Origin: Sediminibacterium sp.
Lineage (GTDB): Bacteria > Bacteroidota > Bacteroidia > Chitinophagales > Chitinophagaceae
Assembly: GCA_016786865.1 (NCBI GenBank)
Contig: JAEUVE010000018.1
Coordinates: forward strand, 1 to 64,000
Length of the DNA: 64,000 nucleotides
Direction of reading: 5' to 3'
Both the position numbers and the translations under genes were made by a program. Position 1 is the stretch's first letter. Every line of letters begins with the position of its first letter. Below, in pieces: positions 29,949 to 44,350 of the stretch. The notes under the pieces were generated by a model. It saw only the letters and a list, made by a program, of their open reading frames with translations, searched no databases and was not told where the DNA came from.

Positions 29949-31178
29949 ATGGCTTCAGGCAAAAAAGCAGCAATCGGATTCATCTTTGTTACCATCCTGA
30001 TCGATGTGGTTGGATTCGGACTGATCATTCCAGTTATGCCCAACCTGATTGAAGAATTGCTGGGTAATAAAAGCGTGAGCCTTGCTTCCATGTACGGGGG
30101 ATGGCTTGGGTTTGCCTATGCCATCATGCAATTTTTATTTGCACCCATCCTGGGAAACCTCAGCGATAAATATGGCCGAAGACCGGTGCTGTTGTTTTCG
30201 CTTTTCGGATTTGGTCTGGATTATCTCTTCCTTTGTTTTGCCCCTTCCATCTGGTGGCTTTTTGTCGGAAGATGCATTGCCGGTATTACCGGTGCAAGCT
30301 TTACTACCGCAACCGCCTATATTGCCGATATCAGTACTGCAGAAAACCGTGCACAAAATTTTGGTATGATCGGGGCTGCATTTGGCGTGGGCTTTATCAT
30401 TGGTCCGATGCTGGGTGGCCTGTTGGGAGAGTTTGGTCCACGGATTCCCTTTTATGCGGCGGCAGGACTTGCGTTAACCAACTGGCTCTACGGATATTTT
30501 GTTTTACCCGAATCGCTCGATAAAAAACTCCGAAGACCTTTTGACTGGAGAAGGGCCAATCCCCTGGGTTCACTTTTACAATTACGTCGCTATCCGGCTG
30601 TGTCGGGTCTGGTGATTTCCCTTGTGCTGGTTTACCTGGCTTCTCATGCCGTTCAGAGCAACTGGAGTTTTTTTAACATAGAAAAGTTTCATTGGTCGCC
30701 TAAAATGATCGGTATCTCTCTCGGACTGGTGGGATTGCTGGTAGGAGTGGTACAGGGTGGTCTTATCCGGATAGTAAATCCTAAAATAGGAAATGAGAAA
30801 AGTGTTTACTACGGGCTGGCCTTGTATTCTATCGGGCTGTTCCTGTTTGCGTTTGCTTCTGAATCCTGGATGATGTTTGTTTTCCTGATTCCTTACTGCC
30901 TGGGCGGTATTGCAGGCCCTGCTCTACAATCCATTATTTCGGGTAATGTGCCGGCCAATGAACAAGGTGAACTGCAGGGTGCCCTGACCAGTTTAATCAG
31001 CGCTACCTCTATTGCAGGGCCGCTGATGATGACCAATCTCTTTGCCTATTTTACGGGGCCTGCTGCGCCATTTTATTTTCCGGGTGCTCCGTTTTTTCTG
31101 GGTGCTTTGCTGATGATGCTGAGTGTGGCAGGGGCCTATTGGGCATTGCATATCCGCGCAAAAAAACAATCCTTATAA
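29949..31178 (+). CDS. TetA-like MFS drug/H+ antiporter
   Basis: 409 residues, 12 predicted helices. Motif [15 protein letters not shown] (about 74-87) between helices 2 and 3, and motif C-like [18 protein letters not shown] in helix 5, are features of the tetracycline-type DHA1 antiporter branch. Drug resistance cannot be claimed; many chromosomal members have other or unknown substrates. Its stop overlaps the convergent lipoprotein gene by 6 bases. Confidence 0.83.
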
Positions 31179-32183
31179 GGAAGTGAGGCGTTCCAGAATA
31201 TCTTTGATTGGTTTCTTTTCGGGGCGTAGTTTGAAGATTCCGGTAGTACCAATATCGCTGAGGTCTTTTTCGTCGTAATAAAAATCCTGGTTGATCTTGG
31301 AAATGGAGATCAGCGTCATTTTCTGGGAACGGGGCAGGTTCGGTGCTCTGAAAGCCCTGATGGCATAATCGGAGTATAAGGGTACGACTGTTTTATATTC
31401 ATCAAATACAGCAAATACAACCGTGTTTTTATTGGTAAAGTTCAATGGGAGTATGGCAGTAAGATGACTGGTGCCGGAATTAAAGTAGGATTGTTTGGCT
31501 GCACAAACCCAATTCAATTTTTTCGAAACTATTTCATACCCGGTCTGATCCTGACCTCCCTGGCTGCTTCTGATAAAAGAACCTACCATCGATCCGTCTG
31601 TGGATTTGATCCAGGTAAATTCCGGATCTACTCCTGCAGGCGCAGGAATACCTTCTTTCCCGTTGTAGACCTGCATGGATGTTTTGGGACTGTTGTCCGG
31701 ATCAATGTATTGAATCAGGTAGGCAACATCCGGTGCAAGCACCAGTTCCTGATTGTTCTGAAAAGCTTTCACAAAGAATGCTCCGGCGGATTCCAGCAGG
31801 GTATTGTAATACAATGTAGCCTGCATGGCTTTGATCATTTCTCCTTTGGTAAGCAGTTTGATCAGCTCAATTTTTACATCCCCGGTAACCGCTGCGCCAT
31901 TGGCCCTAACGAAACTTCCCGGTTGAAAAATCAGGTCTACATTGCCGCCGAAATGCAGGGTGCCACCGGATTCGTTGTTGAAACTGGCGGTATAGGTTCT
32001 GGGTGAAATAGAATCGAAAAGGGCTTTCACCGGAGCATTGGCCGGCAGCAGCCGGGTCCAGATGGTATCGTTCAGCGCATTGGCCATGTTCAGCGTAGCA
32101 TTGCCAGACAATTCTTTTTTGCAGGAACTGAATCCGGTAAAAAGAAAAAATGCTGCGATGATATGTTTGCTGATGCGTTGCAT
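31173..32183 (-). CDS. Putative lipoprotein of unknown function
   Basis: 336 residues with a lipoprotein signal ending in FSSC (Cys about 21). The part 75-115 ([27 protein letters not shown], then KGEMIKA) follows a pattern seen repeatedly in Bacteroidota surface proteins, where it resembles ZU5-like beta folds. No catalytic motif is seen. It lies upstream of no partner on the same strand, but its 5' end is close to the 3' end of the beta-barrel gene (38 bases), so it could be the last gene of the sigma-factor operon. Confidence 0.6.
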
Positions 32184-32221
32184 AGTATTGGGTAGATACG
32201 GCTTGTGTTGTGTTTGCTGCT

Positions 32222-33733
32222 TTATCGTTTATTCAGGTTAAATCTTAATCCCACCGATAATCCACCCACCGAAAAACGCTGTTTGTAAACAGATTCAGGG
32301 GTAGTGATATCGGAGAGATTATATCGCAGGTAAGGTTCTGCAAATACAGAAGTGTTGTAATTGATTCGTTTGGTGATGCTGATACCAGTGTACAGGCCCA
32401 GTCCTACATTGGTTTTGTATCCCACGCTACTGTTCTTGTCGATGGGTTGCGGTGAGAGGGTACTGTCTAACATGACCCCTTTATAGGAGGAACTGAGGTT
32501 CACTATCACGCCTGCATTTATGCCAATCTTCAGATCGTCGTTGCCAAACTGATAACCCAGCAGTACAGGAACATCTATGTGTTTGTACCGGTTGTGTACG
32601 GTATTGTATTTATTAACGGCCTGCTGCAATACACTGGTATCGATCACTGTAACCACGGTGCCATTTGCCAGGGTAATGTTCCTGACTGTGATCACGGTAG
32701 TGGTTTTGATTTCGTCTGATGTTTTATAGGTAAAGCTTTCGTTGATCTGTGCATATTGTAATCCTACCTTAACCTGGAAATGATCATTGAGCGGTTTTAC
32801 AATTCTGAATCCTGCTGTAAAACCAACCCTGGCAGCCTCACTGCTGTCTTTGCGACTCATGAACTGCTGACTGGCAGTATTGCTGCTCACACTTTTAAAT
32901 GCGAGGTCCGGAGATGCATATACTTCCAAGTCCCAGTCGGTATTGCGGATGTTTTTATCCGAAGGACAAAGAATGGTGTTCTTGATATTTCCGGTATGAT
33001 TGCCGTAAGAAATACTTCTTTCTCCGGAAGCAAACAATCCGCCGCGTTGTAAGGGAATGATTGCTGCATTGGAACGGCTGGATGGTGCATAAAACAGGTC
33101 TTCGTCTCTGTTGTCTGCATATTGGTTGGCGGTTTCGGGTTCATTGGCGGTAACCTGCTGGCGGAACAGCCTGTTGATACGCCGCTTGCCGAATACCATT
33201 GTGTTTTCGGTAATAGCTGTTGACGCTTTGCCGGCATCAACTGCGGTGGCACTTGCCGCAGTTCCTGCGGTTGTATTCGGATCGGGTGAAGGATTGGACT
33301 GGTTATCGGGCTGCGTGGGTTGGTATCCGGGTGCAGCCGTTTCTGCAGCGTTGCTTCCGTTGCTGCGGGCCGGGCTTGCTTTGGTAGCATCCGCCGCCGC
33401 CTGGCGGTTGAGCCGGACTTCCCGGAAATACAGATAGGCCGATACCGTACCTGCAATGAAGAGCATCAGCAAAGAAGCAGCCATCATGGAGGTCCTGCGG
33501 GGCAGGAAGAAAATCCTTCTTTTCTTTTCCTCTTCAGGTTGAATGCGATTCCAGAGCTCCGGAGAAACAGGCATGCTCAGATCTCCCAGTTTTTCTTTGA
33601 AGAATGCGTCGAATGCTTCCTGTGGCTGGTTGATGGCAGGCACATGAATCTTCTCCCATAAACCGGCCGGTATGGCTGCAGAATAGTCTTTCAACTTTTC
33701 CCGGGTGATATGGTCAAATTGTTCATTGGTCAT
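32222..33733 (-). CDS. Anti-sigma-like membrane protein fused to outer-membrane beta-barrel domain
   Basis: 503 residues. Two related N-terminal repeats (about 6-29 and 40-64, pattern F-D-x-KL-D-IP-LW-I) are followed by one membrane helix (80-102), a long Ser/Ala/Pro/Asn-rich linker (105-180) and a C-terminal PorT/beta-barrel-like domain (320-503). Its start codon touches the stop of the sigma gene (TAAATG), so the two are coupled. Cytoplasmic repeats would bind the sigma factor; that role is inferred from position and topology. How one chain spans both membranes is unclear. Confidence 0.7.
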   Translation of the reverse strand: MTNEQFDHITREKLKDYSAAIPAGLWEKIHVPAINQPQEAFDAFFKEKLGDLSMPVSPELWNRIQPEEEKKRRIFFLPRRTSMMAASLLMLFIAGTVSAYLYFREVRLNRQAAADATKASPARSNGSNAAETAAPGYQPTQPDNQSNPSPDPNTTAGTAASATAVDAGKASTAITENTMVFGKRRINRLFRQQVTANEPETANQYADNRDEDLFYAPSSRSNAAIIPLQRGGLFASGERSISYGNHTGNIKNTILCPSDKNIRNTDWDLEVYASPDLAFKSVSSNTASQQFMSRKDSSEAARVGFTAGFRIVKPLNDHFQVKVGLQYAQINESFTYKTSDEIKTTTVITVRNITLANGTVVTVIDTSVLQQAVNKYNTVHNRYKHIDVPVLLGYQFGNDDLKIGINAGVIVNLSSSYKGVMLDSTLSPQPIDKNSSVGYKTNVGLGLYTGISITKRINYNTSVFAEPYLRYNLSDITTPESVYKQRFSVGGLSVGLRFNLNKR

Positions 33734-34270
33734 TTAAACGGCAATCTTTTGTAATTGCATAATCTGGTTCTGTAACATTTTTCTTGCCTTGACCAGCTGA
33801 CTTCTGCTGGTACCTGGCTGTATATGGAGCATTTCTGCAATTTCTTCGTGGCTGTATCCTTCTATCACACTCAGGTTAAATACCAGCCTGTAACCTTCCG
33901 GCAACTGGCTGATCAGTTTGAGCAGGTCGGCCTCGCCCAGATGCATATAAGCATGCGGGTCTATTTGCGGATTGTGGGGGCTGTGGTCTTCAATTTCCCG
34001 GAAACTCATTTTCTTTCTTTCCAGATGGCGGATGGCGGTATTCACTACAATGCGCCTGATCCATCCCTCAAAAGAGCCTTCAAATTTGAACTGACCTATA
34101 TATTGAAAAACTTTAATAAACGCGTCCTGAAGCATATCTTCCGCTTCCATATTGTCCTGGGCATACCGCATGGCTACCCCCATCATCTTTCCGGCGTATC
34201 GTTCAAACAACATACGCTGGCAGGATGCTTCCTGTCTGATACAGCCTTTAATCAGTTCGTGTTCCGTCAC
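33734..34270 (-). CDS. ECF RNA polymerase sigma factor
   Basis: 178 residues starting with GTG. Region 2 (MEAEDMLQDAFIKVFQYIGQFKFEGSFEGWIRRIVVNTAI) and region 4 (LPEGYRLVFNLSVIEGYSHEEIAEMLHIQPGTSRSQLVKARKML) are complete. It directs polymerase to an unknown regulon. It is the first gene of an operon with its beta-barrel/anti-sigma-like partner. An exact -7 box and a -33 TTG lie at 34346-34376. Confidence 0.93.
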   Translation of the reverse strand: MTEHELIKGCIRQEASCQRMLFERYAGKMMGVAMRYAQDNMEAEDMLQDAFIKVFQYIGQFKFEGSFEGWIRRIVVNTAIRHLERKKMSFREIEDHSPHNPQIDPHAYMHLGEADLLKLISQLPEGYRLVFNLSVIEGYSHEEIAEMLHIQPGTSRSQLVKARKMLQNQIMQLQKIAV

Positions 34271-34405: not shown

Positions 34406-35518
34406 TCAGATAGATAAAAACTGGTCGTGGATATAGTCTACCACGGATACCAGGCTACCCGTTTGACGGTAAACAGCCAGTTGCCGGTCGGCGCCGGTGC
34501 CCGTTTCGAATATCCGCCCTACATGGTTGATGATGTGCCGGCTTCCGAGTTCATCAACCACATCGTCTACAAAATCGAGGAGCTCATATATCAGCGATTT
34601 GGTATCTACCTCAATCTCTTTACCGAAGTCGATCAGTTTGCCATCGATACCGTACCTGCTGGCCCTCCATTTGTTTTCGTTGATCAGAGAGCGCTGGTAC
34701 ACCATGAAATTGAGGTTCTGGTGCCGCAATTTGTAGATCTTGGCACAGATCGCCTGAAACAGGGCTGCAATGGTCATGGTTTCGTTGATGGTCATGGGTA
34801 CATCGCAGATCCGGAACTCCACTGTATTGAAGAAGGGGTGAACCCGGAGGTCCCACCAGATCTTCTTGGCATTGTCGATGCAATTGGTTTTAATCAGCAG
34901 CTCCACATAGTTTTCGTAGGCTTCGAAGTTTTCGAAGTAATCCGGAATGCCTGTTCTGGGAAATTTATCGAAGACCTTGGTCCGGAAAGATTTATACCCT
35001 GTATCCCTCGATTCCCAAAAAGGAGAGTTGGTACTAAGTGCATATACATGGGGCAGGAAATAACGGGCCGTATTGGCTATATGAATGGCCATTTTTCGGT
35101 CTTCCATGCCCACATGCACATGTAGTCCGAAAATGAGGTTGCTTCTGGCGGCTTCCTGCAATTCATTTACAATCTGGTTGTACCGTACATGGTCGGTGAT
35201 CAGCTGGGTTTCCCAGTGGCTGAATGGGTGTGTTCCCGAAGCGCCCACCCAAAGCCCCAGGTCTCCGGCAATTTGTGCAATATTTCCCCGGAGGCTGGCT
35301 ACGTCTTTGAATACCTCATCTACATTTTTGCAGATATCTGTGCCTACTTCCACAACAGCCTGGTGCATTTCCGCTTTCACCTTGTCTTTTAGTACGGCCT
35401 GCCCCAGTTGTACAATTCTTTGTTCATGGCTTTTGAGTTCCCTGGTGTGCGGGTCGAGTACCATGTATTCTTCTTCGACCCCCAGTGTAAAATGATGATA
35501 GCTGATATTACTAGACAT
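34406..35518 (-). CDS. Carboxylate-amine ligase (YbdK/GCS2 family)
   Basis: 370 residues, starting at the ATG at 35518, which gives MSSNISYHHFTLGVEEEYMVLD, the conserved N-terminal acidic metal-binding segment of the family. Later motifs LHVHVGMEDR and a glutamine-synthetase-like ATP fold support COG2170. E. coli YbdK has weak gamma-glutamyl-cysteine ligase activity, but the native substrate is not known here. It lies 16 bases downstream of an ATP-grasp gene on the same strand and likely forms an amide or peptide bond in the same pathway. Confidence 0.88.
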   Translation of the reverse strand: MSSNISYHHFTLGVEEEYMVLDPHTRELKSHEQRIVQLGQAVLKDKVKAEMHQAVVEVGTDICKNVDEVFKDVASLRGNIAQIAGDLGLWVGASGTHPFSHWETQLITDHVRYNQIVNELQEAARSNLIFGLHVHVGMEDRKMAIHIANTARYFLPHVYALSTNSPFWESRDTGYKSFRTKVFDKFPRTGIPDYFENFEAYENYVELLIKTNCIDNAKKIWWDLRVHPFFNTVEFRICDVPMTINETMTIAALFQAICAKIYKLRHQNLNFMVYQRSLINENKWRASRYGIDGKLIDFGKEIEVDTKSLIYELLDFVDDVVDELGSRHIINHVGRIFETGTGADRQLAVYRQTGSLVSVVDYIHDQFLSI

Positions 35519-35534
35519 AAACCGATTGATCAGA

Positions 35535-36488
35535 TTAGTATAATGCTTTGCCGGTGGTGCTGCGTTTGATGTATTCACCCCAGGTAAGATTGTCTTTGTT
35601 GTCTGTTTGCTGTTGCGCCCTTTCAATAGCATAGCTGGCCGCTGTTTCTACCACCCATTCAAAATTCTCTGGTCCCACGCTTTTCAGATCGGCATCCGGT
35701 GCAGGGTTGCAAAAATCAATGGCATAGGGCACTCCATCCCGGATAGCCAATTCAACAGTATTGAAATCGTATCCAAGGTATTGGTTGATGCGCAATACGA
35801 TGTCTGTTAATTGCTGCAGTCTCTTTTCGGAAGGTTTGAAATTGGCCAGGTACCGCAAATGGTGCGGATTGCGTGGCTCATAAGGCATGATGCGAACATG
35901 TTTGCCGCCAATGCAGTAACAGCGATAATATTCTTCAAATACAATTTCTTCCTGCAGGAGCATCACCAACTGTCCGGTTTCTGCATGTTTTTCAAAAAAA
36001 TCATCCACACTGTTCAGCCGGTACACATTTTTCCATCCGCCACCGGCAAATGGTTTCATATAGGCAGGAAATCCCACATAGCTGAAAATAGCTTCCCAGT
36101 TCAGCGGATAAGTAAGGTTGCTAAAAGACAGTTCCACTGTATCGTGAGGAAGTTCTCTGGAAGGAAGAATAACGGTCCTGGGAACCGTTACATCAATTTT
36201 GGTAGACAAACAGTTGTTAAAAAACTTTTCATCTGCACTCCACCAGAAGGGGTTGTTGATGACCGCAGTTCCGCAGAGCGCTGCATTTTTTAAATAGGCC
36301 CTGTAGAAGGGAACATCCTGGCTGATTCGGTCTATAATAACGGCGTATCCGCTACTCTCGCCCTGGATGACTTTGTCAATTTTTACAGGTTCTGCAACAA
36401 TTCCAGGCAGATTTTTGCTGTTGATCCGCTCTATAAATGCCATGGGAAAACTTCTTTCCTGACCAAACAGGATGCCTATCTTTTTCAT
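35535..36488 (-). CDS. ATP-grasp enzyme (RimK-like)
   Basis: 317 residues from the ATG at 36488; the frame is open to 36809 but the extra 107 residues show no homologous pattern. ATP-grasp signs are GFPAYMKPFAGGGWKNVY (Lys and glycine-rich ATP loop), MLLQEEI, and the acid cluster NTVELAIRDGVPYAIDFCNPAPDAD, which binds Mg. It is predicted to ligate a carboxylate to an amine via an acyl phosphate. First gene of a two-gene operon with the carboxylate-amine ligase; the esterase diverges from it. Confidence 0.82.
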   Translation of the reverse strand: MKKIGILFGQERSFPMAFIERINSKNLPGIVAEPVKIDKVIQGESSGYAVIIDRISQDVPFYRAYLKNAALCGTAVINNPFWWSADEKFFNNCLSTKIDVTVPRTVILPSRELPHDTVELSFSNLTYPLNWEAIFSYVGFPAYMKPFAGGGWKNVYRLNSVDDFFEKHAETGQLVMLLQEEIVFEEYYRCYCIGGKHVRIMPYEPRNPHHLRYLANFKPSEKRLQQLTDIVLRINQYLGYDFNTVELAIRDGVPYAIDFCNPAPDADLKSVGPENFEWVVETAASYAIERAQQQTDNKDNLTWGEYIKRSTTGKALY

Positions 36489-36560
36489 ATGCCTGAATTT
36501 GAAAAGAAATATACGCAATTTCCGGATAGTTACAGCAGCCTGCTTTTGTAGCCAAAGTAT

Positions 36561-36568
36561 TATTTTTG
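36561..36568 (+). promoter_or_regulatory. Bacteroidota -7 promoter box (TATTTTTG) of the esterase gene
   Basis: An exact TAnnTTTG ends 5 bases before the esterase ATG, so the mRNA is probably leaderless. The region 36489-36573 carries promoters for both the ATP-grasp operon and the esterase. Confidence 0.55.
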
Positions 36569-36573
36569 AACCC

Positions 36574-37395
36574 ATGGCCAAAACCGCAACACCCGCTGCA
36601 ACAGTTCGGGTAGCACAATACCTGATTGAATCGGAATACCTGGAACGCAATGTAACGGTAGATGTGTACCTGCCCGCAGATACTACACCGGGAAGCGATA
36701 ACATGAGTCTGCTGCTGATCAATGATGGCCAGGACCTGCGTACCATGCATTTTGAAAAAATGCTCGGCAGGCTGATCGGCGATGGGGAAATAGAACCGCT
36801 GATGTGCATCGGTATTCATTGTGGTGCCGACCGTAAGATGGAATACGGAACTGCTTTTGCTGCTGATTATATGGGCAGGGGAGCCAGGGCAGGTTTGTAC
36901 AACAAATTTATTCTGGATGAACTCCTGCCTTTTATCCGGAAGCAATACCATGCGCCTTCCTTTAAAGACAAGTCGTTTGCCGGATTTTCGTTGGGGGCAT
37001 TGAGTGCGCTGGATATCTGCTGGAATCATGCCAGTGAATTCCGGAAGATTGGCTTGTTCAGCGCCTCGCTCTGGTGGCGGAAGAAAGCTTATGATGATGG
37101 ATACGACGATGAGCGCGACCGTCTGATGCACTTACAGGTGCGCAAAGGAAATTTCAGCCCCTGGCTGCAGTTTTTTATACAATGCGGTACCGCAGAGGAA
37201 ACAGCCGACCGGAACGGGAATGGCATCATTGATACCATCGACGACGCCCTGGATCTGATTGTTGCCCTGAAGGCAAAGGGATATACGGATGACCATATCC
37301 GCTACCTGCAACTGGAAGGAGGAACGCATGATGTTGCCACCTGGGGTGCAGTGTTTCCGGATTTCCTGAAATGGGGGTGGGGGATATCCGGTTAA
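36574..37395 (+). CDS. Putative esterase (enterochelin-esterase-like alpha/beta hydrolase)
   Basis: 273 residues without signal peptide. The nucleophile elbow is GFSLGA (about 154-159), with a putative catalytic His in GGTHD (about 256) near the C terminus. An EF-hand-like loop, DRNGNGIIDTIDD (about 212-224), lies between them and could bind calcium. It matches the PF00756 type. It is divergent from the ATP-grasp/ligase operon and may hydrolyse or trim the product of that cluster; this is inferred from neighbourhood only. Confidence 0.75.
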   Translation: MAKTATPAATVRVAQYLIESEYLERNVTVDVYLPADTTPGSDNMSLLLINDGQDLRTMHFEKMLGRLIGDGEIEPLMCIGIHCGADRKMEYGTAFAADYMGRGARAGLYNKFILDELLPFIRKQYHAPSFKDKSFAGFSLGALSALDICWNHASEFRKIGLFSASLWWRKKAYDDGYDDERDRLMHLQVRKGNFSPWLQFFIQCGTAEETADRNGNGIIDTIDDALDLIVALKAKGYTDDHIRYLQLEGGTHDVATWGAVFPDFLKWGWGISG

Positions 37396-37505: not shown

Positions 37506-40500
37506 TTAGAAAATGTAACGGATACCGAACTGTGCCTGCCATACATCACCAATACTTGTGCTCTTTCTCAGAGTGCTGTAGTTGATGCTGTTGCTAACAC
37601 GAGTCATGGTGAACTGAGGAACTCCCTGTGCATTTACACCTTGTGCAGTCAGCGGGTTGAATGTGTTTACGAAGTTGCTCACACCCCATGCAGAGTTCAA
37701 CAGGTTGCCTACGTTGAAGATATCTGCTCTCAGCTGAATAGTGTGTCTGTTTTTACCAATGTTTCTGAACAGTTCCAGTTGTGTAGAGAAGTCGAAACGA
37801 ACCACATAAGGTAATAAAGAACCGTTTCTTTCTGCCACTTTACCGCGATTTTTGCTCAGATAAGGATCCTGGTTGATATAGGCATCGAATGCATCTTTCT
37901 GTTGTTGTACAGTTGCAGCAGGTGCAGAACCTGAAGCAGACATTGCAATGAAGTTCATTTCAGACTGGTCGCGGGGAATGTACATCAGGTCGTTACCGCT
38001 TAATCCATCACCGTTCATATCACCACTGTAGGTGTAAGAATAACGGCCCTGATTTTGAGACTGACCGAACAGAGAGAACTGCAATGCAGCATTCTTACCC
38101 AGCTCCATGCGATAGTTTACATTACCGATTACACGGTTACGGATTTCATTATCGCTGTAAGCGATATCAGTGCTGTTGTTACCACGAACACTCTGAATAG
38201 CAGTCCATGAGCTGTAAGCAATAGAACCACCGGTCATGAAATCACGCGCTCTGGTGAAAGTGTAAGCAGCCATCCAGCCCAAACCTTTAGACTTGGTTGG
38301 TTTTTCAATCTTAACAGTTGCAGCAATAGAACCACCCAACGGACCGCTTTCCAGTACGGTAGCATCTGTGATCTTTGGATTTACACGGAGTGCATTTGCC
38401 TGAGCAGTACCAGACAAGCCCAGACCTGCAAAACGAGGTCTTGTATCAGGACCTGCAAAGAAAGTAGTTGCAGGCTTCAGGTTGGCGTTGTAGTAGTTGA
38501 TGTTGTTCAGACTCTGTGTATAAATGAATTCTCCTGTCAGAATGATGTCGTTGAAGATCTTCTGATCAACAGCCAGGTTTGCGCGGAGTACTTTAGGGAA
38601 ACGGAAACCTTCTTCAGTAGCAGCAATGTTATAAGAAGAAGCAGGTACACCCGGATTTGGCGCAAAGCTTGCGTAGTTAGCCGGAGTGCTGGTGCTGAAA
38701 GGATATGCTGCAGTGTTGTTGAAGCTTACGGAACCGTTCAGTACACCATTGTTACCCATTTGGTTGCTGATGTAAACAAATGGAGGACGGCCGGTGAACA
38801 GACCTACACCACCTCGAACCTGAGTGGTTTTGTCTCCTTTGATATCATAGTTGAAACCGATACGAGGGCTGATCATCAGCTTGGCAGTAGGTAATTTAGA
38901 AGTGCTGAGTTTTACGCTCTGACCATTGTTATCGATGAAGCTCATGCCATCAATTTCGGTATTGGTATAACCGGAACCGCTGAAGAAAGGAACTTCAAAA
39001 CGTACACCATAAGTAAGGTTGAAGTTAGACTCCAGGTTCAGTTCGTCCTGAATGTATGCTGCAATGTTGCGTGCCTTGGTTGTTACCAGCCATGGACCAC
39101 CACCAGGTAAGTTACTGAAACTTGCACGGTAGTTTCTCATAAATACCGGGCTGTAAGTACGGCTGGGATCTGCGATGAATGCATTTGCAGCAGTATAGAA
39201 ATCGTCCAGGCTATTGAAAGTATAGATACCGTTGATCAATGAAGTAAATCCATTGGTGAAGGTAAAGCTCTCAAAAGATACACCTGCAGTTAATGTGTGT
39301 TTACCCAGGTAAGCAGTCAGGTTGTCGCTGAACTGCCATGTATCTGTATTCAACAGGTTGTTGGGGGTAAACGGATCGTTACCGAAAGAAATATAAGTTC
39401 TGCTCTGTCCTGTTTGTGCAGAAGGTACAGTAGAAGTTGCTGAGGTAGGAACTGCTGTCAGCGGGCTGCTTCCATCCTGGATATCCACCATTGGGAAAGC
39501 ACCGCCTTTAACACCTCTGAAGTCTCTGTTTGCAGTATAACCAAAAGTCAGTTCATTGCTGATCTTGTTGCTGAAACGGCTGTTCAGTTGAGCAATTACA
39601 CCATAAATATTGTTGTTGATCTCGTAAGCAGAGTTGCCAAACATCATGGATACGTTGCTGTTTCCACGGTTACCGCTGGTAGAGTTACTGGAGCTTGCTC
39701 CAACATCTCTTTTAGACAACAACATGTTACCACGGATGCTCAGCTTATGCTTATCGTTGATGTTCCAGTCGATACGGGCTACAGCCTTATCGCTCTTGGT
39801 TACGAAAGGATAACCCTGGTAAGGTCCCGGATCGTAGTTCAGTTTGGTTTTGATGAAAGTAGACAGGGCATCCAGTTCAGCAACTTTTACACGGGAAATA
39901 TTACCGCTGATCGGAGTTGCACCATTGCTGGCGTCTGCTACCCAGGTAGAACCGATATCGTTTCTTCTTTCTGCTTCGTAGTTAACAAAGTAGAACAATT
40001 TGTTCTTGATGATTGCACCGCCTAAGCTGGCACCGAATTGCTTCACATCGAATGCAGTGGTAACTACATCCTGCTTACCCTGCATACCGGCTTTCTTACC
40101 CAGTAATTTTTCACTACGGCCATTGTAGAAAGCTGTACCGTGAATGGTGTTGGTACCACTCTTGGTTACCGCATTGATACTGGCACCGGTGAAACCTGCA
40201 TCTCTCAGGTTATAGGGAGATACGTTGATCTGGATTTCCTGTAAGGCATCCAGAGAAATAGGAGCAGAGTTGGTTTGACCACCGTTCAGTGAACTCAGAC
40301 CAAAAGAGTTGTTAAAGATAGAACCATCCAGTGTAAAGTTGATAGCTCGTCCGTCCTGGCCGGCAAAAGAGGTACCGTTAGACTGGGGAACCAGACGAGT
40401 AATATCAGTTACGTTCCGGCTGATGGTAGGCATGCTGCTGATCAAACGGGAGTTGATGTTGGTTGCAGCGCCTTTTCTGTCTTTGGAGATCAGGGCAGAT

Positions 40501-40883
40501 CTTCTGTTCGCAGCGCCACTCACTGTTACTTCCTGTAATTGAGTAGAGTTGTCGGATAAGGTGAAGTCAACTACTGTGGGTTCACCTAACTGAACTGTTA
40601 TATCAGTTACCACTTCAGTCCTTAAACCAACATAGGTAACGGTGATTTTGTAAGGTCCACCTACACGGAGGCCGGGTACAGTGTATTTACCGGTATTGGT
40701 AGATACAGCTTTGTAGCGGGAGCCTGATGGTTCGTGCAGAACCTCAATTGATGCACCTGCTAAAGGCGCATTTTTGACGTCAGTTACCGAACCGGTGATC
40801 GTACCGGTGGTGACCTGGGCCATTGAAATGGAAACAGTGAGTACTGCTACCAAAAACAACGAAATCTGTTTTAACATTCTCAT
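37506..40883 (-). CDS. Oar-like TonB-dependent outer-membrane receptor
   Basis: 1125 residues from the ATG at 40883. Signal peptide (1-23, ending SMAQ), then a carboxypeptidase-regulatory-like beta domain (25-110, ITGSVTDVKNAPLAGASIEVL), a plug (about 120-260; TFDGSIF-like, QTNSAPISLDALQEIQINVSPYNLRDAGFTGASINAVTKSGTN) and a large C-terminal beta barrel ending in F. Length, lack of a SusD partner and plug pattern fit the Oar family. The substrate is not predictable. Two receptors in tandem occur here; this one is the better conserved. Confidence 0.88.
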   Translation of the reverse strand: MRMLKQISLFLVAVLTVSISMAQVTTGTITGSVTDVKNAPLAGASIEVLHEPSGSRYKAVSTNTGKYTVPGLRVGGPYKITVTYVGLRTEVVTDITVQLGEPTVVDFTLSDNSTQLQEVTVSGAANRRSALISKDRKGAATNINSRLISSMPTISRNVTDITRLVPQSNGTSFAGQDGRAINFTLDGSIFNNSFGLSSLNGGQTNSAPISLDALQEIQINVSPYNLRDAGFTGASINAVTKSGTNTIHGTAFYNGRSEKLLGKKAGMQGKQDVVTTAFDVKQFGASLGGAIIKNKLFYFVNYEAERRNDIGSTWVADASNGATPISGNISRVKVAELDALSTFIKTKLNYDPGPYQGYPFVTKSDKAVARIDWNINDKHKLSIRGNMLLSKRDVGASSSNSTSGNRGNSNVSMMFGNSAYEINNNIYGVIAQLNSRFSNKISNELTFGYTANRDFRGVKGGAFPMVDIQDGSSPLTAVPTSATSTVPSAQTGQSRTYISFGNDPFTPNNLLNTDTWQFSDNLTAYLGKHTLTAGVSFESFTFTNGFTSLINGIYTFNSLDDFYTAANAFIADPSRTYSPVFMRNYRASFSNLPGGGPWLVTTKARNIAAYIQDELNLESNFNLTYGVRFEVPFFSGSGYTNTEIDGMSFIDNNGQSVKLSTSKLPTAKLMISPRIGFNYDIKGDKTTQVRGGVGLFTGRPPFVYISNQMGNNGVLNGSVSFNNTAAYPFSTSTPANYASFAPNPGVPASSYNIAATEEGFRFPKVLRANLAVDQKIFNDIILTGEFIYTQSLNNINYYNANLKPATTFFAGPDTRPRFAGLGLSGTAQANALRVNPKITDATVLESGPLGGSIAATVKIEKPTKSKGLGWMAAYTFTRARDFMTGGSIAYSSWTAIQSVRGNNSTDIAYSDNEIRNRVIGNVNYRMELGKNAALQFSLFGQSQNQGRYSYTYSGDMNGDGLSGNDLMYIPRDQSEMNFIAMSASGSAPAATVQQQKDAFDAYINQDPYLSKNRGKVAERNGSLLPYVVRFDFSTQLELFRNIGKNRHTIQLRADIFNVGNLLNSAWGVSNFVNTFNPLTAQGVNAQGVPQFTMTRVSNSINYSTLRKSTSIGDVWQAQFGIRYIF

Positions 40884-40902
40884 AATCTTTGATTTGATGC
40901 CG

Positions 40903-40935
40903 CAAATATCAGACATTCAGACGGTCTTATCCAAA
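40903..40935 (-). promoter_or_regulatory. Probable promoter of the first TonB receptor
   Basis: On the minus strand TTTG (40935-40932) and gATATTTG (40910-40903, one mismatch to TAnnTTTG) are spaced 21 bases apart, about 20 bases upstream of the start codon. Confidence 0.4.
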
Positions 40936-41024
40936 ATCTTGTTAAAATAATGATTTGTTAACATCCAAAAATTGGGTATTTCCGCTTAATTAAATATAAC
41001 ATCAGTCAGTTTCCTTGTTGATAA

Positions 41025-44000
41025 TCAGCTCGTTGGGATATTTTTGTTTTTCTTATATGACGGGCTTTTTTTGTTAAAACTGTTGATAAAATGTATGCGA
41101 AATCCCAGCTCCAGCTGCCATCCGGCACCTATGGCGAAAAGCCTGCCGGTAGCATCCCTTACTCCTGTTCCGGCAATCAGTTCCGGATCAAAGCGAAAGA
41201 CCGGTATTAGTGGTGATTCCTGTATATACCCCGCGAAGCTGATCAGCCGGATCCGGTTTCCGGGAACATAGTACTGTTTTCCCAAATTCCGGATACCAAT
41301 GCTCACCTGAAGTTCGTATTTTTTTTGGTTCAGTTTCGCCTGAACGGATGTGCTTAGTTTCAGGTGGATGCTGTGACCAAATGGTGTTCTACTGCCATTC
41401 CGGCCTGCATAATTACCCCGGTGCTGATTCAGGTAACTGTTTTGCTGAATAAACCATTCCAGCGCTTCCTTCTGCTGATCCTCCGTATAATAATATGTTT
41501 CGGTGGTCAATGGCAAAAAATGCTGTGCCTGTAATTCTGTAGGGGTAGGAATATAGATCAGGTCGTAGCCGGGGGATGAGGGATCGTCTCTGGTCAGATT
41601 GTTTTTTCCATATACATAACTATACCCGGCACCTGAACTGCCCTGGTAACCGATGCTGAGCCGGATCTTCAGGGAAGGTCGCAACAGCATCCATTCCTGT
41701 GTAATCCGGAAATAAATCCGATGCCCCGCACTGAAATCTGATCTGGAGCGCCGTACATTGTTTCGTCCGCTGCCCGTTTCGTTGAATTGCCACTGGCTCA
41801 GCAATACGGAATAATTTCCGTCGTAAACAGAAAATGCATCATTGTAACTATAGCCCAGCGCAATACCGGTATTCGGATAATTTTTATGAAAGCTGACGCC
41901 TGCTCCGTAACCGTATCCATGTTCTTCCGGATTGTTGCGCAATAAAATAATGTACTGGTAGGGATTGCTGCTGTCTGCTTCCACCGGAATACGGGCCTGG
42001 TTTTCGAAAGGATAAACGATTCGGTTGTCTGGCCCTGAAAGCCGGGTCTTGGCGGGTAAAAGATTCACATTGGAAAAATGAATTTCTTTCCGGTTAACAT
42101 AATACATACACTCCACTTGCAGAAAGGACCGGTCGGGCCAGTACCGGGTCCATTGAACGGTGCTTCTCCATACGGATGGCATGGATAATTTTCCTGCAAC
42201 CAGGTTCAGCACCCCCTTACCTGCAACGCCCCCGGTTTGTTCCGGTGTCCATGGATGTTGTGCATCTGCGGAAAAATGCATTTGCTTTCTCTCTCCGGCA
42301 CCCGCCTCAAAGCTTTGGTATACCAGGCCATTGTTGCTGTAGATACTGCTCAGCCACGCCATCGGCATCCTGCCATTGAACAGACCGGTACCCGCCTCAA
42401 GTTGCCATCGATGCTGCCTGGACCAAAGGGTTATACTGAACCGGGGGGCAATCCCCGGCAAGAGTGCGGGGTGGCTACCGTATCGGGTATCGGCCAGGTT
42501 GTGGTAAGCCTGTACCGCCGGAAGCACTTTGTTGACCGTGATGCTGTCGGTGCCAGTCATGCCTGTAATCTGTTGAAGGGTGATCCGAAAACCTGTTTGC
42601 ACTAAACAGTACTCGCTGATCCGAATCCGGTCGTTGATAAATATGGACATACTGCTCAAACCGGATGCAACCAGTCCGGTTACTCCGTTTTTGAAAGGAT
42701 AGGTATTTGTATAATAATTGCTGTTATATGCTACCGGACTGCGCTGTTGCAGAAAGTCTGTGATGGAATAGTAGAAATAAGCACCGTACCTGTTCTGTAA
42801 AAACTGGTTTTGAAATCGGTTGAGGCTGGCCTCTGTTCCCCAGTTCAACTGATGACGGCTTTTATTGAAATAGCTTTTGTAACGGATGGTCCAGCTGTTT
42901 TGCAAAGTGCTGTTTTCCTGTGCGTCTTCATTGCTTCCAAGGAACAGCATGCCTGCTCCGTCCAGTATCCTGAGTGATGGAAAGGGCTGGCCCCTTGGGT
43001 TGGAGTGGTCGTTTGCGCTGGTATATCCCAATACCAGTTCGTATCCGGTATCTGTTTTTTTTCTGCTGTTCAATTGGAGGGTTCCGGAAAAACTTCCGGA
43101 ATGGTACTGCCTGCCATTGTTGCTGAAAAACAACTGCAGCGGGTTACTCCTGCCAGAGACGATTCTTTCAGAAAACTGTTGCCTTATGCTCAATGTAAGC
43201 AGTTTTTCGGAAGCTATTAAACGATCTATCCGGAGCGAGAGCCTGGCCGCATGTTGTTCCTCCTGAGCATCCAGCACTCCGGGGTCATAGCCGTAACGTG
43301 TTTTCATCGATTGAACGAATTGTTTCATGCGGTCTTCGTTGCGGGTATCTCCGGTATAGCTTTGGAAGGGATAGGGTTCCTGTTTGGCAACAACCTTGTA
43401 GTCTGTATTGAAATAGTAAAAAGAGCGGTTGAACTGTATGGGGCCGCTTAGGGTGAATCCGCTATTGTTGGAGCTGCCCTGATCTGTTTGGATATATCGA
43501 TAGATAACAGCACCTGGATGGTTGTTTCCGGATTTGGTAGCCACATGGATAAGTGCTCCTGTATAATTACCCAGGGAAGCATCGTAGGGAGAAAGCTGCA
43601 ACTGTAATTGATCAATGGTTTCTGCAGCTACCGGACTGCTGTTGGTTTGCCCGCCATAAGTACCTGTTGGAGAAAGCCCAAAAACATCGTTCTGTAATGC
43701 TCCGTCTATATACAAGGCATTGTAGCGGTTGTTTTGTCCTGAAAAAGAAATGGCTGCGCTGTTGTTCTGGTTGCTGTAAGCCTGTGGCAACGAAAGCAAC
43801 CAATCCTGTAACTGGTTTCCTGCAGACGGAAGTTTCCACAGTTTTGCTGCAGTAATGGTATACCGGTCGTTGGGTTGCTTTGCCCTGGTTGTTACCAATA
43901 CCGGCTGCAAGGGGTTGAGAAGGGGATGCAATACAATGTTGATCTGCAGGGTTTGGTTCAGTTGAATTTCGATATCGTGGATCTCCAGGGTGTCTGACTG

Positions 44001-44255
44001 TGGGGCTGTGCAGCGAATCCTCCATTGATGTCCCGGCGGAATATGGTTAAATTGAAACATCCCCGCAGCGTTGCTTTTGCTTTGTAATACCATTCCGTTG
44101 CTTGCATCTGATAACCAGATTACAGCAGCTCCAACGGCCTGTTCCTGCATTTTAACGGAGCCCGTAAGGTATCCACTGGTGGCCTGCGCGTGAACTGGCT
44201 GCACCGAAGGTATCAACAGTAAAATCAGCCAGCCGGATATGTATTGATGCATCAT
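41025..44255 (-). CDS. Divergent Oar-like TonB-dependent receptor
   Basis: About 1076 residues from ATG 44255 (MMHQYISGWLILLLIP signal, ending HAQA); the frame is open to 44318. Same layout as the neighbouring receptor: a regulatory beta domain (about 30-110), a plug (SFSGQNNRYNALYIDGALQNDVFGL, then QTNSSPVAAETIDQLQLQLSPYDASLGNYTGALIHVATKSGNNH) and a C-terminal barrel. The plug aligns by eye with that of the first receptor but is clearly divergent, and the barrel is different, so they are old paralogues. Separate transcription is likely (141-base spacer). Confidence 0.82.
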   Translation of the reverse strand: MMHQYISGWLILLLIPSVQPVHAQATSGYLTGSVKMQEQAVGAAVIWLSDASNGMVLQSKSNAAGMFQFNHIPPGHQWRIRCTAPQSDTLEIHDIEIQLNQTLQINIVLHPLLNPLQPVLVTTRAKQPNDRYTITAAKLWKLPSAGNQLQDWLLSLPQAYSNQNNSAAISFSGQNNRYNALYIDGALQNDVFGLSPTGTYGGQTNSSPVAAETIDQLQLQLSPYDASLGNYTGALIHVATKSGNNHPGAVIYRYIQTDQGSSNNSGFTLSGPIQFNRSFYYFNTDYKVVAKQEPYPFQSYTGDTRNEDRMKQFVQSMKTRYGYDPGVLDAQEEQHAARLSLRIDRLIASEKLLTLSIRQQFSERIVSGRSNPLQLFFSNNGRQYHSGSFSGTLQLNSRKKTDTGYELVLGYTSANDHSNPRGQPFPSLRILDGAGMLFLGSNEDAQENSTLQNSWTIRYKSYFNKSRHQLNWGTEASLNRFQNQFLQNRYGAYFYYSITDFLQQRSPVAYNSNYYTNTYPFKNGVTGLVASGLSSMSIFINDRIRISEYCLVQTGFRITLQQITGMTGTDSITVNKVLPAVQAYHNLADTRYGSHPALLPGIAPRFSITLWSRQHRWQLEAGTGLFNGRMPMAWLSSIYSNNGLVYQSFEAGAGERKQMHFSADAQHPWTPEQTGGVAGKGVLNLVAGKLSMPSVWRSTVQWTRYWPDRSFLQVECMYYVNRKEIHFSNVNLLPAKTRLSGPDNRIVYPFENQARIPVEADSSNPYQYIILLRNNPEEHGYGYGAGVSFHKNYPNTGIALGYSYNDAFSVYDGNYSVLLSQWQFNETGSGRNNVRRSRSDFSAGHRIYFRITQEWMLLRPSLKIRLSIGYQGSSGAGYSYVYGKNNLTRDDPSSPGYDLIYIPTPTELQAQHFLPLTTETYYYTEDQQKEALEWFIQQNSYLNQHRGNYAGRNGSRTPFGHSIHLKLSTSVQAKLNQKKYELQVSIGIRNLGKQYYVPGNRIRLISFAGYIQESPLIPVFRFDPELIAGTGVRDATGRLFAIGAGWQLELGFRIHFINSFNKKSPSYKKNKNIPTS

Positions 44256-44350
44256 TAAAACAATTGATACAACAATGCTAGCCTGCAATTGCGGCATGAA
44301 CAACCGTAGTTCTACCATTTTTTCCGGTTTTTACACGGAAACTGGTTATG

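Follow-up and report, generated by a model that had tools for sequence, protein, structure and literature searches.

A conserved ligase and esterase gene trio of Bacteroidota is probably half of an assembly line for a small amide

What is made by two unrelated ATP-dependent, amide-forming ligases that are encoded one behind the other and divergently from an esterase? We addressed this question computationally for a locus of Sediminibacterium sp., which lies in a stretch of 64,000 nucleotides of contig JAEUVE010000018.1 (hereafter, the window). An initial annotation had described a two-ligase operon with a hydrolase on the opposite strand and had suggested a small metabolite, peptide-like or an amide, as the product. 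The genes lie where that annotation had put them (Table 1), with the gene of the GCS2-type ligase following that of the ATP-grasp enzyme, grasp1, on the same strand after 16 bp. The length of GCS2 is counted from the conserved start, to which the 408-aa open reading frame adds only an upstream extension; likewise, the 34 extra residues of a 307-aa frame of the esterase are non-conserved.

Table 1. Coordinates of the trio in the window and of two further genes in the same genome
Feature	Sequence	Position	Strand	Length	Remarks
GCS2/YbdK-type carboxylate-amine ligase (P0002)	window	34406..35518	-	370 aa	Pfam and NCBIfam assignment
grasp1, ATP-grasp ligase (P0001)	window	35535..36488	-	317 aa	RimK/LysX/ArgX-like fold, no Pfam family
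Divergent intergenic region	window	36489..36573		85 bp	between esterase and ligase operon, from sequence
PF00756 esterase (P0003)	window	36574..37395	+	273 aa	divergent from ligase operon
GAT-like gene (class-I glutamine-amidotransferase-like)	contig C7	3896-4729			same genome as the window
grasp2, second ATP-grasp	contig C7	4749-5945		~396 residues	same genome as the window

We noted that sequence models did not place grasp1 in any family: its best Pfam match was R2K_2 (13.2 bits, below the cut-off of 26.2), RimK was not matched, and no NCBIfam family exceeded its threshold. However, in an AlphaFold2 model (50 aligned sequences, pLDDT 94) an ATP-grasp fold of the RimK/LysX type spans most of the chain, and structure comparison found RimK, LysX and ArgX closest, with Z of 20-22 over ~260 residues (5zk6: Z 22.3, 262 residues, rmsd 2.8), although at only 13-17% identity. 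The earlier ATP-grasp call is thus upheld by the model and the structure comparison, with Pfam support remaining below the cut-off. Residues K145, E246, D258 and N261 are near-invariant in the alignment and, by analogy with ATP-grasp enzymes generally, are predicted ATP or metal ligands; the metal motif is D-F-x-N in place of the E-x-N of RimK. The ATP-grasp fold is also found in kinases and in ligases that modify proteins.

GCS2, the product of the only GCS2 gene of this genome, belongs to PF04107 (E 1e-56) and exceeds the NCBIfam cut-offs of PRK13515 (521 bits versus 371) and TIGR02050 (290 versus 176). In contrast, it falls below those of the glutamate-cysteine ligase models, scoring 55 bits versus 249 for gshA_cyano (TIGR02048) and 346 versus 409 for PRK13517, other PRK13517 models scoring lower still. 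The motifs GxEEE, HVHVG and ExR are near-invariant among 114 sequences. GCS2 thus resembles E. coli YbdK (PDB 1R8G; PRK13515) in sequence family, conserved motifs and the NCBIfam cut-off passed, but differs in being clustered with two ATP-grasp enzymes; YbdK itself is not known to act together with two such enzymes.

The esterase (PF00756, E 3e-23) conserves the serine nucleophile motif GFSLG and a C-terminal histidine (GxHD). By eye, no signal peptide is obvious in it. An EF-hand- or dockerin-like loop, DRNxNGxIDxxDD at residues 212-224, is conserved in 87 aligned homologues; it is odd in so small an esterase, which may depend on calcium. One homologue (L117, 520 aa) seems, by eye, to be fused to a C-terminal DinB-like stretch.

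The trio is conserved over the Chitinophagaceae, where the nearest named relatives, such as Sediminibacterium, are found: GCS2 is the next gene downstream of grasp1, and the esterase is the next gene upstream and divergent. The arrangement does not come about by chance, for nearly all of 80 relatives fetched by ATP-grasp similarity keep it, as do Chitinophagaceae genomes; among the loci fetched by grasp1 similarity, GCS2 directly follows grasp1 on the same strand in 107 and the esterase directly precedes it in the opposite orientation in 81. The objection that the three genes are not conserved together, which the initial annotation had itself raised, therefore fails. Other families have an extra small alpha/beta hydrolase gene (est2) upstream of grasp1, and a GAT-like gene plus a gene for a second ATP-grasp enzyme, grasp2, after GCS2; some lineages instead have the gene of a circularly permuted ATP-grasp directly behind grasp1. 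Outside a few distant lineages and those that have the circularly permuted enzyme, a search with a third type of esterase retrieved mostly generic PF00756-like matches.

Across the loci no broadly recurring neighbour family was found beyond this core set. One distant lineage has an aromatic amino acid lyase gene beside grasp1 in four loci (L120, L122, L124 and L130), where GCS2 is not adjacent, and a ketopantoate hydroxymethyltransferase gene is a neighbour in three loci; both look lineage-specific. We also considered a defence system and a mobile origin, and discarded both: PADLOC gave no match, and phage and plasmid collections held no homologue.

The genome of the window encodes grasp2 as well, on another contig (Table 1), where the GAT-like gene adjoins it behind a gene that we named by eye as an M42-type peptidase. 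The latter was rejected as a member of the system, its link being kept in the window's own genus only; on the same stretch (L154, 2766-6575 of contig C7 of G000) a MiaE-like gene, also named by eye, lies beside the GAT-like and grasp2 genes. In several Chitinophagaceae relatives grasp2 is located within 8 kb of grasp1, and in two loci (L198 and L200) a single stretch carries the whole set of GAT-like gene, grasp2, GCS2, grasp1 and esterase. Since the genes that lie apart here stand beside the trio in relatives, the window holds one part of a split locus.

An orthologue of the GAT-like protein matches PF00117 above the cut-off (43.9 bits), and the cysteine (ICHS) and HPE (QFHPEA), which make up a Cys-His-Glu triad, are conserved in 25 sequences. 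For grasp2, an AlphaFold2 model (38 sequences, pLDDT 93) was best matched by YgiC, YjfC, glutathionylspermidine (GSP) synthetase and eukaryotic-type glutathione synthetases (Z 24-26; for E. coli YgiC, Z 26.1 over 343 residues, rmsd 3.4). Trypanothione and homoglutathione synthetases were also among the fold matches, the best of which run over the full length with Z of 22-26, whereas the next, unrelated ATP-grasps reach 8.3. Despite this likeness, grasp2 is only 11-14% identical to its structural matches, so the fold does not reveal its substrate, and its relatives do not reach the Pfam GSP_synth cut-off of 29.3 bits (one, L110, scored 14.8; another, L068, gave no match). The metal-ligand-like residues D95 and E112 are invariant in alignment A2, and positions 112-114 read E-x-Q in place of the E-x-N of GSP synthetase. 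For YgiC and YjfC, peptide-spermidine ligase activity has been reported (Pederick et al. 2023, as cited in PMC12568646).

To see which members of the set belong together, we counted them in a fixed set of 296 Bacteroidota genomes. Homologues of grasp1 were found in 108, grasp2 in 92, GCS2 in 103 and the GAT-like protein in 70 of them; 15 genomes gave a strong match to the circularly permuted ATP-grasp. Four distant grasp1 matches (30-43% identity, against at least 50% for the others) were set aside, a choice made after both partners had been seen to be absent from these genomes; they are also the lowest-identity full-length matches. All 104 remaining grasp1 genomes encode exactly one second ligase, grasp2 in 89 and the circularly permuted enzyme in 15, and none encodes both. 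Only three genomes encode a second ligase but lack grasp1, that ligase being grasp2 each time; in one of them (G154) no grasp1 was seen in the region read beyond GCS2. The Fisher p value for the pairing, 2e-77, ignores phylogeny, and shared ancestry inflates the co-occurrence, so that it is descriptive only.

The invariant element is, thus, grasp1 together with a second ATP-grasp, which in the window's genome is encoded elsewhere. The system can more readily do without GCS2 and, above all, the divergent esterase: GCS2 is present in 90 of the 104 grasp1 genomes (ten distant matches, with 33-38% identity, being left out of this count) and absent from 14, and the GAT-like protein is present in 69, among them every one of the 15 that have the circularly permuted enzyme, and absent from 35. 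Gamma-glutamyl and amidotransferase steps therefore cannot be universal. Same-genus contrasts suggest that the genes for grasp1, grasp2, GCS2 and the GAT-like protein are gained or lost jointly. In one genus (g23), one genome (G072) has all four and another (G166) has none; in a second (g17), two genomes (G142 and G218) have all four, and three (G021, G025 and G057) have none.

The above results show that the trio is not the complete system and not its invariant core either. The original proposal, a small peptide-like or amide metabolite, fits all of the findings, given that three unrelated ATP-dependent carboxylate-amine ligases co-travel. The trio is probably half of a conserved bacterial assembly line that joins small building blocks via amide bonds. 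The reading that fits best, and to which we give about an even chance, is that a small peptide-like amide is assembled in the cytoplasm by successive ATP-dependent ligations, independently of non-ribosomal peptide synthetases (NRPS). Activation of a carboxylate as an acyl phosphate is the standard chemistry of the GCS2 and ATP-grasp superfamilies, and each of GCS2, grasp1 and grasp2 would act in this way. GCS2 would activate a carboxylate, probably that at the gamma position of glutamate, for coupling to an amino acid or an amine; grasp1 may add an amino acid, like RimK and LysX; and grasp2, like YgiC and YjfC, may place an amine, possibly a polyamine, on a carboxy terminus. The GAT-like enzyme could supply ammonia or, alternatively, hydrolyse gamma-glutamyl bonds, and the esterases may take off an acyl or ester group or pass it on. 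A gamma-glutamyl peptide carrying an amine cap is perhaps the product.

The same enzymes might instead form a glutathione-type thiol pathway, in which GCS2 makes gamma-Glu-Cys, grasp2 adds the third residue and grasp1 makes a variant. GCS2 does lie within the GCL-2 superfamily, grasp2 shares its fold with human and plant glutathione synthetases and with homoglutathione synthetases, and PF00756 also holds S-formylglutathione hydrolases. We nevertheless consider this pathway rather improbable: the scores of GCS2 are above the YbdK-type cut-offs and below those of gshA_cyano and PRK13517, the invariant member, grasp1, has no place in glutathione synthesis, and a search of the window's genome, the one genome searched, found no GSH-S_ATP domain (PF02955) and did find the bacillithiol enzyme BshC. 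Because the GshA cut-offs are missed, the bacterial glutathione synthetase is absent and BshC is present, it is unlikely that glutathione alone is made. Modification of a protein, with grasp1 acting like RimK and the other enzymes building or removing the tag, would agree with the top structural matches of grasp1, of which RimK acts on a ribosomal target and LysX and ArgX on the carrier protein LysW. However, no gene for a conserved small target or carrier protein was found within 4.5 kb, nor any conserved neighbour outside the core, and the obligate partner of grasp1 is a ligase of the peptide-amine fold class; although a target may be encoded elsewhere, we regard protein modification as unlikely.

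The pairing of GCS2 with a class-I GAT-like hydrolase bearing a Cys-His-Glu triad, together with the polyamine ligase fold of grasp2, recalls Puu-like amine catabolism or detoxification, where GCS2 would glutamylate an amine and a PuuD-like GAT-like enzyme would later remove the glutamate. Such a scheme has no need of two further ATP-grasps, the GAT-like gene is missing from 35 of the 104 grasp1 genomes, and the neighbourhood has no recurring gene for an oxidase, an aldehyde dehydrogenase or an aminotransferase, which makes it, in our judgement, quite unlikely. A cluster for a ribosomal peptide of the graspetide type, with grasp1 as the macrocyclase, is largely refuted and now extremely improbable: PsnB and a Chryseobacterium graspetide ligase are among the structural matches of grasp1, but no conserved small open reading frame or precursor gene was present at any position within 4.5 kb across the loci.

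Amidoligase neighbourhoods, in which ATP-grasp and other ligases are combined with hydrolases, were reportedly described by Iyer et al. in 2009 (Mol Biosyst). Our literature search, with that work outside the comparison, found no published description of the set of grasp1, grasp2, GCS2, GAT-like enzyme and esterase. In the fungal E-64 pathway (Cp1A-D), two stand-alone amide-forming enzymes are likewise chained without an NRPS, and Cp1B (9cjn) forms a pseudodipeptide (PMC12568646). Cp1B is of the same glutathione-synthetase fold class as grasp2 (Z 22.9). The pathway differs in its organism and product, in its second enzyme, which is an adenylating amide bond synthetase, and in having no set of GCS2, GAT and esterase.

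About one-third of the sampled Bacteroidota genomes hold the enzyme set, even though neither Pfam nor NCBIfam has a family for grasp1, and the strict pairing defines a set (grasp1, grasp2, GCS2, GAT-like enzyme and esterases) for in vitro reconstitution and metabolomic comparison. We propose only tentatively, as a possibility somewhat against the balance of probability, that it makes a widespread, unrecognised class of small Bacteroidota metabolites, peptides (gamma-glutamyl or other) that are linked to an amine, through an obligate pair of stand-alone ATP-grasps whose second ligase is replaced by the circularly permuted enzyme in some lineages. If the predicted polyamine cap is real, chemistry like that of glutathionylspermidine would extend over a large part of the phylum, in hosts that, judged from one genome, use bacillithiol instead of glutathione.

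In the window, directly downstream of the ligase operon (31173-34270), lie an ECF sigma factor gene and then genes for a 503-aa outer-membrane-barrel protein and for a protein of 336 aa with no Pfam match, a block whose synteny is kept in ~20 relatives. On the other side (37506-44318), two large outer-membrane proteins are encoded consecutively. The first (1136 aa), convergent with the esterase, combines a carboxypeptidase-regulatory domain with an outer-membrane barrel, and a member of its family is kept nearby in 48 loci of relatives.
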